From Flavobacteriaceae bacterium MAR_2010_72 (GTDB lineage: Bacteria; Bacteroidota; Bacteroidia; Flavobacteriales; Flavobacteriaceae): a DNA stretch of 64,000 bases. The notes under the pieces were generated by a model that made no database searches, was not told the origin of the DNA, and was given only the letters and a program-made list of their open reading frames with translations. This document shows, in pieces, positions 49,812 through 53,355 of this stretch; the first letter of the stretch is position 1, and each line of letters begins with the position of its first letter. A program made the position numbers and the translations under genes. The stretch covers positions 1,922,001 to 1,986,000 of the forward strand of contig QXCW01000002.1 in assembly GCA_003550275.1 (NCBI GenBank), given 5' to 3'.

Positions 49812-50657
49812 TCAATTTATTAGCTCAAATTGCAGTAATTTACCCTTGTAGGCTTGCGCCAAACTATTAATTGCTGTTTCCTTTAATTGAAGTACTCTTG
49901 GGTAACCTCCAGTAGTTTGACCATCTCGCATTAAAACTATTAAGTTACCTGAAGGTGTTAGTTGCACAGTTCCGGGCATCACTGGGGAGGTAAGGATTGA
50001 TGGCAGTTCATTTTTTACTTGCTCTTCCAACTGGTACCCCATGCGATTGTTTGATCCCGAAACCGTAAAAGGCTCAAATAATCTTTCTTGTTGAATCGGA
50101 TTTAGCAAGTTGTATTCTGGCCCTTTAAAAACCTGTAACCGATTTGTATTGAAAATTTCAGTTTTAAACTTTAAAGTTGAATTGGTTTGGGTAAATTCAA
50201 TCTTTGACGAATGTATTGGCAACATCTGATTAGCTTCAATTTTAACTGAATCTGTAATAGATTTGAACATACTTCGGCTATTTAAGCGTATATCTGTTTG
50301 AAACCCTCCCGAAACCCCCAAATAAGTTCTAAATCCAGTTTTTGAACGTCCAAATACAAGTAAATCATTAGGCTTGACACCAAAAACCGTATTCATTCTA
50401 ATTGAAGCTTCATTTAGTTTAGGCGACATATCAGCACCTGTAATACAAATATATGTTGCAGTAAAAAATTCCAAAGTTGGTCCCGTCATGGTAATTTCCA
50501 ATACAGCATCCTCTGGTTTGTTGTTCAACAAAGCATTAGCAAAGCGTGATGAGTACCGATCCATTGCTCCAGAAATAGGCACACCATAATCTTGATGGCC
50601 TAATCTACCTAAATCTTGAATTGTAGAATAAAACCCTGGTTTAATCACCCTAACCAT
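49812..50657 (-). CDS. pxpC: 5-Oxoprolinase subunit C (biotin-dependent carboxyltransferase-like, KipA type)
   Basis: 281 residues of the AHS2/KipA fold. The N-terminal VIKPGFYSTIQDLGRLGHQDYGV (split here as VIKPGFYSTIQDLG then RLGHQDYGV) is the family hallmark, followed by GAMDRYSSRFANALL, YLGVSGGFQTDIRLNS and the C-terminal DGQTTGGYPRVLQL. With PxpB and PxpA it forms the bacterial ATP-dependent 5-oxoprolinase, which opens 5-oxoproline to glutamate. It overlaps pxpB by 8 bp and is the last gene of the operon. The GQTTGGYPR motif makes the assignment firm. Confidence 0.93.
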   Translation of the reverse strand: MVRVIKPGFYSTIQDLGRLGHQDYGVPISGAMDRYSSRFANALLNNKPEDAVLEITMTGPTLEFFTATYICITGADMSPKLNEASIRMNTVFGVKPNDLLVFGRSKTGFRTYLGVSGGFQTDIRLNSRSMFKSITDSVKIEANQMLPIHSSKIEFTQTNSTLKFKTEIFNTNRLQVFKGPEYNLLNPIQQERLFEPFTVSGSNNRMGYQLEEQVKNELPSILTSPVMPGTVQLTPSGNLIVLMRDGQTTGGYPRVLQLKETAINSLAQAYKGKLLQFELIN

Positions 50658-51384
50658 TTAGCACCTCACTTTCTACCTTATAATCACCAGCTTTTACTTC
50701 GACTTCAATACGATGGAACGTTTCTAAATCAATTGGTACAAACTGAATATTATCCCCTGCCTTCGCAAAACAAGGTATTTCTTTCGAAGCATCGAAAAAA
50801 GATATAGGCGAATTCCCAATAACATGCCAACCTCCAGGACTTTGATTTGGATAAATACCAGTTTGGCTACCACCAATTCCAACATCTCCCTTACGCACTT
50901 GCAATCTTGGTGTCGATTTTCTTGGCGTAATAAGTCTCTCGTCTAAACCACCCAAATACAAAAACCCTGGTAAAAATCCAATAAAATAAACAGTGTAAAT
51001 GGGTTTGGAATGCAACTTAATTATTTCTGTTTTTGAAAGCCCTTTTTGCATTGAAATCTCTTCTAAATCCAATGCAAATGCATTATCATAACATACCGGA
51101 ATTTTCCATAGTTGTCTTTCTGGTAAAGTGTTTTGAATTTTTGTTGAATATAGGTATTTAAGGGTTGAAATTTCAGTATTGACATTCTCTATACTAAAAT
51201 CATAAGTTATTAATATCGAGTTATATGCAGACTTTATTTGAACTTTTTGTTTATCATAATTCTTATCAACAGTATTTTTGAATTTAAGAATATCGGTGAG
51301 AATATTTTCATCAATTTTTGAAGGCCATTCTACCAAAATTGAACGCTCCCCATAAGGCTTATATGTAAGGTTAAAATCTGTCAA
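50650..51384 (-). CDS. pxpB: 5-Oxoprolinase subunit B (KipI type)
   Basis: 244 residues of the AHS1 fold. Typical segments are YKPYGERSILVEWP at the N-terminus, IPVCYDNAFALDLEEI, VYFIGFLPGFLYLGGLD, TPRKSTPRLQVRKGDVGIGG and QTGIYPNQSPGGWHVIGNSP. These form the pocket that, with PxpC, couples ATP hydrolysis to ring opening. In Bacillus the homologue KipI also inhibits the sporulation kinase KinA, but metabolic function is expected here. It starts 4 bp after pxpA and overlaps pxpC. Confidence 0.93.
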   Translation of the reverse strand: MTDFNLTYKPYGERSILVEWPSKIDENILTDILKFKNTVDKNYDKQKVQIKSAYNSILITYDFSIENVNTEISTLKYLYSTKIQNTLPERQLWKIPVCYDNAFALDLEEISMQKGLSKTEIIKLHSKPIYTVYFIGFLPGFLYLGGLDERLITPRKSTPRLQVRKGDVGIGGSQTGIYPNQSPGGWHVIGNSPISFFDASKEIPCFAKAGDNIQFVPIDLETFHRIEVEVKAGDYKVESEVLNG

Positions 51385-51388
51385 AATC

Positions 51389-52132
51389 TCAACGAATTAA
51401 AACATGATGATCTTTCAGTTTTTTAGTCAATCCTTCAACCAATTTTACCGCTTCAGGATGATCACCATGAATGCAAAATGTATCTGCCTTTATCCCTACC
51501 TCTACCCCATCAATGGTTTTTACTTTCTTTTTAAAAATCATTCTATGAACATGCTCAAAAACTAAATCTGCACGCTCAATAATAGGACTATTTTTAGTTC
51601 TTGAAACCAACGTAAGGTCATCATTATAATTGCGATCAGCAAAAGCTTCATAAGTTACAGCAATATGTTCTTTTTTAGCTATATCAGCTAGAACTGACTT
51701 ATATGGTGCATACAGATACACTGGAAAAGCAATGCTTTTAACCACTTCTATCACAACGTTAGCGGTCTTTTCGTCTATTGCAGCGAGATTATATAAAGCA
51801 CCATGAAGTTTGATGTGATGGAGCGTGAGATGTTCTTCGCGCAAAACCACCATTAAATCCCTGATTTGCTGCCTTAAGGATGTATAGAGATCGGCACACG
51901 ACATATCAATAATTTGTCTCCCAAAATTCTCCTTATCCGGAAATGAAGGATGCGCTCCAATCTTAACCTGATACTCTTTAGCCAACTTCACAACTGTCCT
52001 CATAGTGTCAAGGTCTCCCGCATGGCCACCGCAGGCAATATTACACGAAGATATATAAGGCATCAATTTAGATTCATTATTGATTCCTTCGCCAACATCA
52101 CAATTAATATCAACAATCCATTCGTTTATCAT
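51389..52132 (-). CDS. pxpA: 5-Oxoprolinase subunit A (LamB/YcsF family)
   Basis: About 247 residues from the ATG at 52132 (MINEWIVDINCDVGEG). The frame is open to 52219, but that part only shadows the end of the transporter gene. The LamB/YcsF hallmarks are VDINCDVGEG, SSCNIACGGHAGD, KIGAHPSFPDKENFGR, HIKLHGALYNLAA and FCIHGDHPEAV. It supplies the ring-hydrolysing activity. Its ATG overlaps the stop of the Nramp-like gene (ATGA), placing all four genes in one transcript. Confidence 0.93.
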   Translation of the reverse strand: MINEWIVDINCDVGEGINNESKLMPYISSCNIACGGHAGDLDTMRTVVKLAKEYQVKIGAHPSFPDKENFGRQIIDMSCADLYTSLRQQIRDLMVVLREEHLTLHHIKLHGALYNLAAIDEKTANVVIEVVKSIAFPVYLYAPYKSVLADIAKKEHIAVTYEAFADRNYNDDLTLVSRTKNSPIIERADLVFEHVHRMIFKKKVKTIDGVEVGIKADTFCIHGDHPEAVKLVEGLTKKLKDHHVLIR

Positions 52133-53355
52133 AGCACACCAAAAACTTTCAAAATACTTTTCAAGCCTAAAAATACAGCTATTCCCAGAACAATAAAAGC
52201 CACAACATTTTGAACCCAAGTATTTTTATAGGTTCCTAAAATAGAAGATTTGTTCATGATCCAAATCAAAAAACCTGCTATAAGCGGAAGCAACAAGCCA
52301 TTGGTCACTTGTGCGAACTTTATAATTTCAATGGATTTAAATCCTATAGAAGAAAACAGGATACCTAAACCCAAAACCAGCATCCACACCGCTTTGAACT
52401 TTTTTGAACCCAAGTGAGACGACCATCCCAAACATCCTGTAGCCACATAAGCCGCAGCTAAAGGGGCAGTTATAGCACTGGTAATGCCGGCAGCGAAAAG
52501 CCCAACTGCCAAAACATATTTAGACAGACTTCCAAAAAGTGGCTCTAACCCTAAAGCCAAATCAGCAGCACTATTAACCTCTTGAGATTGAATCGCGGCA
52601 GCAGCAATAATTATACACATAGAAACCAAACCACCTAAAACGACCGCTATTAACGTATCTTTTCTGGCATGTTTCAAGTCTGGAACGCTGTTCCACTTCT
52701 CCTTTACTAATGAAGAATGTAAAAAAAGATTGTATGGAACAACTGTAGTCCCAATCAAACCAACAACGAGCAAAAGACTTCCTCTTGGCAGACTAAAACT
52801 AAAAACACCTTTAAAAACTGAAAGTAGATTTGGCTTGGTTAACATAGCAGCAATTAAAAAGGAAACACTCATCAAAATTACCATTCCTACCAATGCCTTT
52901 TCAAGTATTTTGTAATTTCCAATATTTAGTACCACAAATGCTACGAGCCCTATAATCAAACTAAAAGAGTTTATCGTGATTCCGGCAATGGCTATACTCG
53001 GGTTTCTAAAAATAGTTTCTAAACCTAAAACACCACCACTAATATTTCCAGCTTCGTAAGCAGCATTTCCAATGACAATGGCTGATAAAATCAAAATAAT
53101 CGCAAACACCCTAACCAGTGGATGTTTCACTTCGGATCGTATGACTTCAGAAAGGCCTTTTTGGGTAATAATACCTAAACGTGCTGACATTTCCTGCAAA
53201 ACCACTGTTGCGACTATAGAGAACATCATAGCCCAGAGCAATGCAAATCCAAACCCTACTCCTGCTAGCGTACAAATAGTTACGGTTCCTGGCCCGATAA
53301 AGGCCGCGGCGACCAAAGGCCCTGGGCCAATATTTCTAAAATAATTTTTTAACAT
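52129..53355 (-). CDS. Nramp-family-like transporter of the 5-oxoprolinase operon (YcsG type)
   Basis: 408 residues with 10-11 membrane helices in the LeuT/Nramp layout. The usual TM1 metal motif DPGN reads GPGT (G21-P-G-T24), and TM6 MPHN reads VPYN (V206-P-Y208-N), so the Asp, Asn, Met and His that normally help bind divalent metal are replaced. The flanking family signature (VPYNLFLHSSLV) is kept. As I recall, Bacillus subtilis carries an equivalent gene, ycsG, beside pxp genes (ycsF, kipI, kipA). Transport of 5-oxoproline or a related organic solute is a reasonable guess. It starts the operon. Confidence 0.85.
   Translation of the reverse strand: MLKNYFRNIGPGPLVAAAFIGPGTVTICTLAGVGFGFALLWAMMFSIVATVVLQEMSARLGIITQKGLSEVIRSEVKHPLVRVFAIILILSAIVIGNAAYEAGNISGGVLGLETIFRNPSIAIAGITINSFSLIIGLVAFVVLNIGNYKILEKALVGMVILMSVSFLIAAMLTKPNLLSVFKGVFSFSLPRGSLLLVVGLIGTTVVPYNLFLHSSLVKEKWNSVPDLKHARKDTLIAVVLGGLVSMCIIIAAAAIQSQEVNSAADLALGLEPLFGSLSKYVLAVGLFAAGITSAITAPLAAAYVATGCLGWSSHLGSKKFKAVWMLVLGLGILFSSIGFKSIEIIKFAQVTNGLLLPLIAGFLIWIMNKSSILGTYKNTWVQNVVAFIVLGIAVFLGLKSILKVFGVL

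Follow-up and report, generated by a model that had tools for sequence, protein, structure and literature searches.

The transporter gene and its operon

The window analyzed here, a stretch of 64,000 nucleotides from Flavobacteriaceae bacterium MAR_2010_72, carries on its minus strand a cluster of four genes in the order transporter, pxpA, pxpB and pxpC, the transporter being the first (Table 1). The transporter ORF has an intact frame and encodes 408 aa, which belong to the Pfam Nramp family PF01566 (283.8 bits, cut-off 29.8). PxpA scores 269 bits with PF03746 and exceeds the cut-off of NF003814, and the transporter is thus encoded together with 5-oxoprolinase genes. Because of the ATGA stop/start overlap, translational coupling of the transporter to pxpA is likely; the TTG start of pxpB lies 4 bp past the end of pxpA. 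An earlier note on this DNA had proposed coupling to all three pxp genes, a claim that stands as likely for pxpA and that, for the four genes as a whole, is suggested by their arrangement.

Table 1. Position of the transporter gene, its altered motifs and the pxp genes within the window.
Feature	Position	Strand	Evidence
Nramp-fold (PF01566) transporter gene without metal site, proposed 5-oxoproline carrier	52129..53355	minus	ORF, profile, model
TM1 motif GPGT (residues 21-24), replacing DPGN	53284..53295	minus	alignment; helix break in model
TM3 motif YEAGN (residues 100-104), N104 replacing the conserved Glu of metal transporters	53044..53058	minus	alignment
TM6 motif VPYN (residues 206-209), replacing MPHN, preceded by T203	52729..52740	minus	alignment; helix break in model
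pxpA, start codon shared with the transporter stop (ATGA)	51389..52132	minus	PF03746, NF003814
pxpB, TTG start	50650..51384	minus	TIGR00370 over cut-off, PF02682
pxpC, 8 bp overlap with pxpB	49812..50657	minus	PF02626; NF045499 and TIGR00724 below cut-offs

The same note had read GPGT for DPGN in TM1 and VPYN for MPHN in TM6, and the 408-aa translation bears this out (contexts FIGPGTVT and TTVVPYN). The window protein, therefore, lacks the DPGN/MPH pair of canonical SLC11/Nramp proteins (it has GPGT and VPY), lacks the TM3 Glu (E134 of DraNramp), at whose position N104 is found, and does not show the signature of the NRMT Mg2+ transporters (DAGG in TM1, APW in TM6 and Glu in TM3). It does score above the cut-off of the NCBIfam model NF037982, 'Nramp family divalent metal transporter' (101.9 vs. 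50). This model, which stands at equivalog level, names the window gene a metal transporter with the ligands absent, as it does a haloarchaeal copy (L096), and the name is likely a misannotation.

An AlphaFold2 model of the window protein (41 sequences; mean pLDDT 83.5, pTM 0.84) predicts helix breaks at residues 20-21 of TM1 and 205-206 of TM6, as expected for a LeuT fold. Among solved structures, the best match was DraNramp, at Z 48.5 and 22% identity across 371 residues, followed by EleNRMT at Z 45.0 and the Nramp of B. fragilis at Z 44.9. For YcsG of B. subtilis (model 9a52_A), the comparison gave Z 40.3 and an identity of 19% across 382 residues, and the amino-acid carriers AdiC and ApcT ranked lower (Z 29.6 and 29.0, respectively); structural neighbors were also searched with Foldseek. 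As the earlier note had claimed, the Nramp fold is retained and the metal site is lost.

Loss of the metal-binding residues in homologs

A total of 230 loci were read: the window, 60 from Bacteroidota, 9 from plasmids, 80 named loci, 20 from Halobacteria and 60 from Pseudomonadota. Apart from the 80 named loci, these were picked by hand down lists of matches to the window protein and are not a random sample of Nramps. The named loci had been retrieved with patterns that include a portion of the TM1 or TM6 motif, and they were excluded from the motif counts. Among the 150 loci chosen without regard to motif (149 plus the window), TM1 reads GPGT in 112, DPGN in 25, DAGG in five and something else in seven (GPGS in four, GSGS in two and GPGA in one), with one locus having no residues there.

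In the alignment, G21, T24, N104, V206 and Y208 occupy the positions that hold D, N, E, M and H in the metal Nramps, the residues given for DraNramp being D56, N59, D131, E134, M230 and H232 (PMC12873925 or PMC13060092). The combination of N104, T203, V206 and Y208 is found in 110 of the 112 unselected GPGT homologs, the two exceptions being one with D104 and the rest kept, and one with I206 and I208 in which N104 and T203 are kept. Across all 190 GPGT rows, in which G21 and T24 hold by definition of the set, N104 is present in 189, T203 in 190, V206 in 189 and Y208 in 189; both pocket acids are absent in 189/190, and a single homolog has Asp at the second site. The near-invariant residues of the branch are G21, T24, N104, T203, V206, Y208, N209, Q349 and N352. 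D at position 21 and E at position 104 occur together in 25/25 canonical rows and in 5/5 Mg-type rows. In short, the branch of the window protein has lost the two acids that both metal-type groups read here retain. This loss is common to the pxp-linked Nramps, a point that the earlier note had singled out for checking: in the 150 unselected loci, 37/37 pxp-linked copies read GPGT.

Linkage to oxoprolinase-type genes

Linkage was defined as a distance within 5 kb, in flanks fetched for 4 to 6 kb per side (less at contig ends, and 4 kb per side for the canonical Bacteroidota loci). By this definition, 71 of the 112 unselected GPGT copies have oxoprolinase-type genes in their vicinity (37 PxpABC, 33 of the HyuAB/OplAB type and one gamma-glutamyltransferase), compared with 0/25 for DPGN, 0/5 for DAGG (Mg-type), 0/7 for the other motifs and 0/1 for the unread one. 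Setting GPGT against DPGN plus DAGG (71/112 vs. 0/30) yields a Fisher value of 4e-11, which leaves kinship out of account, as well as the few loci shared by the plasmid and Halobacteria sets. The other 41 of the 112 have no such neighbor in the 4-6 kb read per side. When 25 genomes were checked (22 with an unlinked copy, two with a hyu-linked copy and one with flanks unread), pxpA was found in 21 and HyuB in the other four, which is a weak indication.

Across all 230 loci there are 107 pxp-linked copies, including 70 from the motif-picked set (two of them without residues at TM1), and in 107/107 the nearest pxp gene is pxpA, downstream and on the same strand, with a gap of <=300 bp in 106. The HyuAB-linked copies amount to 42 (nine from the motif-picked set), all with the enzyme genes on the strand of the transporter; the nearest gene is hyuA downstream in 37, hyuB downstream in one and hyuA upstream in four, and in Haloferax gibbonsii the last base of the transporter gene is the start of hyuA.

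Some copies have other neighbors. At L049:2844-7058, a window-type transporter lies between a DUF2891 gene and a gamma-glutamyltransferase gene, with the pxpA of that genome at a distance of about 258 kb. At three Bacteroidota loci (L058, L060 and L061), GPGT copies with VTYN or VAYN in TM6 come after a same-strand gene pair, which at L058 encodes 2-oxoacid:ferredoxin oxidoreductase subunits, with no oxoprolinase genes; the substrate of this subbranch may be different.

The same relationship was viewed from the enzyme side in 247 Bacteroidota genomes, 51 of which have pxpA over the cut-off (a 52nd, marginal match was left uncounted). A close window-type homolog, defined by an E value of 1e-100 or better, is found in 33 genomes. 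All 33 have pxpA, compared with 18/214 of the others (Fisher 2e-28, kinship ignored), and in 29 of them the window-type gene adjoins pxpA by coordinates, which corresponds to 29/51 pxpA loci. Two of the 22 remaining pxpA loci were unread, one in genome G194 and the other in G128, in which a partial window-type match with one stop adjoins pxpA. At the 20 that were read, a canonical (DPGN/MPH) Nramp, whose presence next to pxp genes the earlier note had set against its own proposal, is found beside pxpA in 0/20. Instead, a different Nramp-fold gene, reading IGPGFLTQT and GGTVGGY, adjoins pxpA in six, an MFS carrier lies between pxpC and pxpA in two, and in two more an MFS gene with the orientation of pxpC lies about 0.1 and 0.6 kb beyond it; in 10/20 neither an Nramp-fold nor an MFS gene was seen. 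The two loci with the MFS carrier in the slot of the transporter, in the order pxpB-pxpC-X-pxpA, are L366:4712-5956 and L367:4739-5980.

One transporter branch beside two enzyme families

PxpABC and the HyuAB/OplAB-type proteins match different Pfam families, and 5-oxoproline is the substrate that PxpABC has in common with part of the OplAB/HyuAB family. The HyuAB-type neighbors of the transporter, which may act on hydantoins or other lactams, fall below the cut-off for the NCBIfam caprolactamase CapAB, and a fused Hyu form of 1252 aa (at L138) matches a 1288-aa PDB chain labeled N-methylhydantoinase as well as a chain named 5-oxoprolinase. Caprolactamase is itself related to 5-oxoprolinases and hydantoinases (PMC8453981).

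All trees built for the transporters are unrooted. The GPGT rows lie on one side of a branch with a support of 97 (103 rows) or 98/92 (54 rows), and this branch is intact at only 78 once the motif columns and eight long-branch rows are removed. The best trees (103 rows, and 95 rows without motif columns) contain five pxp/hyu partner changes, two of which are forced by strong branches in the 95-row tree without motif columns. The swap is clearest for L138 (Hyu), which pairs with L154 and L162 (Pxp) at a support of 100 in the 103-row tree, and for L332 (Hyu), which pairs with L335 (Pxp) at 100/97 in the 54-row tree. That the transporter stays constant while the enzyme family is swapped for another of similar chemistry indicates a small molecule, rather than an enzyme cofactor, as the link between them, and the presence of the same branch beside a second 5-oxoprolinase/lactamase-like family indicates a shared substrate.

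A second pxp-linked branch

The different Nramp-fold genes at six Bacteroidota pxpA loci group with relatives from Deinococcus, Lactiplantibacillus, Rhizobium, Thioclava, Shinella and A. baumannii records. These 12 YcsG/MumT-type sequences read GPGF and GGTVGGY (GGTIGGY in one) and are thus without the metal site. In the 54-row tree, where they stood in for YcsG, PxpT and MumT as sequences presumed to be of their type, they form a branch of their own (100/100), apart from that of the window (98/92), the backbone between the two pxp-linked branches of this unrooted tree being weak (27/76). Identity between these YcsG-type genes and the window protein amounts to 17-21%. The placement of YcsG itself among the 12 stand-ins is suggested by the structure comparison, the likeness of the operons and the identities quoted in PMC13274462, according to which YcsG is 50% identical to C. 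glutamicum PxpT and ycsG adjoins pxpA; a PDB sequence search with a YcsG-type protein did not have 9a52 among the matches listed. The possibility that the window gene is an ortholog of YcsG/PxpT was considered and rejected, given the 19% identity to YcsG chain 9a52_A and the separate tree branches.

The six YcsG-type loci of the plasmid collection include a D-glutamate cyclase or 'putative hydro-lyase' gene in four cases (two of them Pfam-checked) and a biotin carboxylase gene in four. In A. baumannii, the order at L379:4748-12208 is LysR, Nramp, LamB/YcsF (PxpA), D-glutamate cyclase, a PxpB/PxpC-type fusion and biotin carboxylase. Because D-glutamate cyclase produces 5-oxo-D-proline, this operon also has a 5-oxoproline theme. 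Its Nramp-fold protein is devoid of DPGN/MPH, whereas MumT has been published as a Mn importer.

Nramp-fold proteins and metal supply in the genome of the window

Three PF01566 proteins over the cut-off are encoded in the genome from which the window comes, and since all three lack DPGN/MPH, Mn is not supplied by a canonical Nramp in this genome. The second of them (L002:1393-2667; C2:2959031-2960107 of that genome) reads TGTGS in TM1, and its gene is flanked on each side by an alginate lyase gene (PF08787) of the same orientation; the third, very divergent (L003:1402-2616; C2:710046-711080), reads IGVSH. The genome also has a ZIP protein and a Mn/Zn-type metal ABC importer that adjoins an MntR/DtxR-type regulator, so Mn is possibly supplied by these. 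The assignment of the ABC importer as MntABC-like was not upheld, every NCBIfam match being below cut-off and the binding protein being nearest to the zinc protein AztC.

Proposed function and alternatives

The observations above make it quite probable that the window gene encodes an uptake carrier for 5-oxoproline, or for a close cyclic-amide acid. Indeed, the shared motif loss, the pxp linkage, the co-occurrence with pxpA, the enzyme swap and the replacement of the transporter by a YcsG-type Nramp or an MFS carrier at other pxp loci, all read from sequence, favor the organic-anion carrier with which the earlier note had sought to explain the linkage. Other carriers of the APC superfamily hold the carboxylate of amino acids at the helix breaks of TM1 and TM6, and by analogy the following course may be proposed. 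The protein would act as a secondary carrier of the Nramp/LeuT fold importing 5-oxoproline (pyroglutamate) or a close cyclic-amide acid, which would enter the outward cavity and settle where TM1 and TM6 are broken. There the carboxylate of the substrate would lie close to T24 and to the backbone of GPGT, while its lactam would contact polar groups of TM3, TM6 and TM10. Rocking of the bundle would then release 5-oxoproline inside, where PxpABC from the same cluster would hydrolyze it with ATP to glutamate, removing the product. The cargo, the direction of import and the ion coupling are, like the cargo position, putative elements of this scheme. The genetic evidence for 5-oxoproline comes from the other branch, in which PxpT of C. 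glutamicum and YcsG are required for growth on this compound (PMC13274462), and would extend to the window protein by analogy, at 19% identity between YcsG and the window model. The function carried out by PxpT is probably performed here by a branch other than that of PxpT.

An alternative that appears unlikely is that the window gene encodes an importer of divalent metal (Mn2+) that supplies the pathway through a rebuilt site, as proposed for YcsG ('MntG') and MumT. The fold is close to that of DraNramp, the genome has no DPGN/MPH among its three PF01566 proteins, and a body of work on the second branch points to Mn. Ogura (2023) described YcsG as a Mn importer, reporting that its overexpression raises cell Mn, that an mntH mntA ycsG triple mutant is not obtainable without a further ycsG copy and that MntR binds the promoter of the ycsG operon, and remarking that a polar effect could account for the 5-oxoproline phenotype found earlier (PMC10448178); the authors of the PxpT work also leave metal transport possible (PMC13274462). 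For mumT, Juttukonda (2016) found that its loss leads to lower Mn, a slower start of growth with calprotectin and higher Mn tolerance (PMC5050338). Against this, neither pocket position is acidic in 189/190 GPGT rows, whereas the Mg-type rows keep both acids (5/5), and pxp linkage is absent from the 30 metal-type loci (0/30). The missing acids and the pxp/hyu linkage make metal import less likely; in addition, MFS carriers occupy the same operon slot, and Mn may be supplied by the ABC importer and ZIP.

A similarly low probability is assigned to another organic solute of the pathway (hydantoin, a gamma-glutamyl compound, glutamate or D-glutamate), or to export of 5-oxoproline. Two haloarchaeal plasmid copies, found beside HyuA/HyuB and a gene of the Asp/Glu racemase family, and the Bacteroidota copy beside gamma-glutamyltransferase would suit such a cargo, but general enzymology has 5-oxoproline as the common substrate of PxpABC and part of OplAB/HyuAB. 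The kinship of these enzymes described in PMC8453981 points the same way. Lastly, loss of the known substrate site could reflect a degenerate protein, or a purely structural or regulatory partner devoid of transport. This is very improbable: the frame is intact, the model is confident, and the residues of the new site hardly vary across Bacteroidota, Pseudomonadota and Halobacteria, which argues against decay. An uptake carrier for 5-oxoproline is, therefore, the reading retained.

If correct, this reading would place a non-metal carrier near the root of the metal Nramps, and names such as 'divalent metal transporter' (NF037982) would be wrong for these bacterial and haloarchaeal genes. It also bears on a contradiction in print, in which the carrier of the related operon is a 5-oxoproline transporter (PMC13274462) or a Mn importer (PMC10448178). 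A wider proposal, given somewhat less than an even chance, is that the orphan outgroup discussed below and the YcsG/MumT branch, two deeply separate branches of the Nramp superfamily, are both carriers of cyclic amides (5-oxoproline), that the Mn phenotypes of YcsG/MumT are indirect and that Nramp metal transport arose from, or beside, an organic-acid carrier.

Comparison with known systems

Cellier (2022) described, as the group closest to Slc11, an outgroup that is separate from NRMT (PMC9606685). In 2023 the same outgroup was named 'orphan', with Y..N in h3, and mutants were made that carry its V/Y (h6) and its T (position 228) (PMC10606218). These residues match the motif of the window protein, and from sequence we infer that its branch is that outgroup. 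No function for the outgroup was found in the portions available of these papers, nor any link of the orphan branch to 5-oxoproline or HyuAB in the open-licence literature, to the extent that its text was accessible. The 'G-motif' groups of Nramp-related proteins of Ray, Berry and Gaudet (2026) are also among the systems closest to the window branch; their G-motif 3 group holds MntG, and those besides NRMT-like and G-motif 3 are described as entirely uncharacterized (PMC12873925), while a related preprint handles such sequences as likely metal transporters (PMC13060092). The present proposal thus offers a testable function for an Nramp branch that specialists call orphan or uncharacterized.

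The systems nearest in genetic context are PxpT (C. glutamicum), YcsG/MntG (B. subtilis) and PxpG (C. difficile), which have the PF01566 fold and are encoded with pxpABC like the window gene; as seen above, identity between YcsG and the window model is as low as 19% over 382 residues, and the YcsG-type relatives form a separate branch. The layout of the A. baumannii locus fits mumR and mumTLUHC, the published 'urea metabolism' mum operon (PMC5050338), a likeness of layout that makes the locus a candidate for A1S_1266. Canonical SLC11/Nramp proteins (MntH; DraNramp) have the fold in common with the window protein (Z 48.5, 22-24% identity), but carry DPGN, MPH and the TM3 Glu, all of which it lacks. 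The NRMT Mg2+ transporters (EleNRMT) also have the fold in common (Z 45), as well as T at what we take to be the position of DraNramp A227, but rows of this type retain the D of TM1 and the E of TM3, reading DAGG and APW, whereas the window protein does not. With the amino-acid carriers of the APC superfamily (AdiC, ApcT), finally, only the fold is in common, at 11-13% identity.
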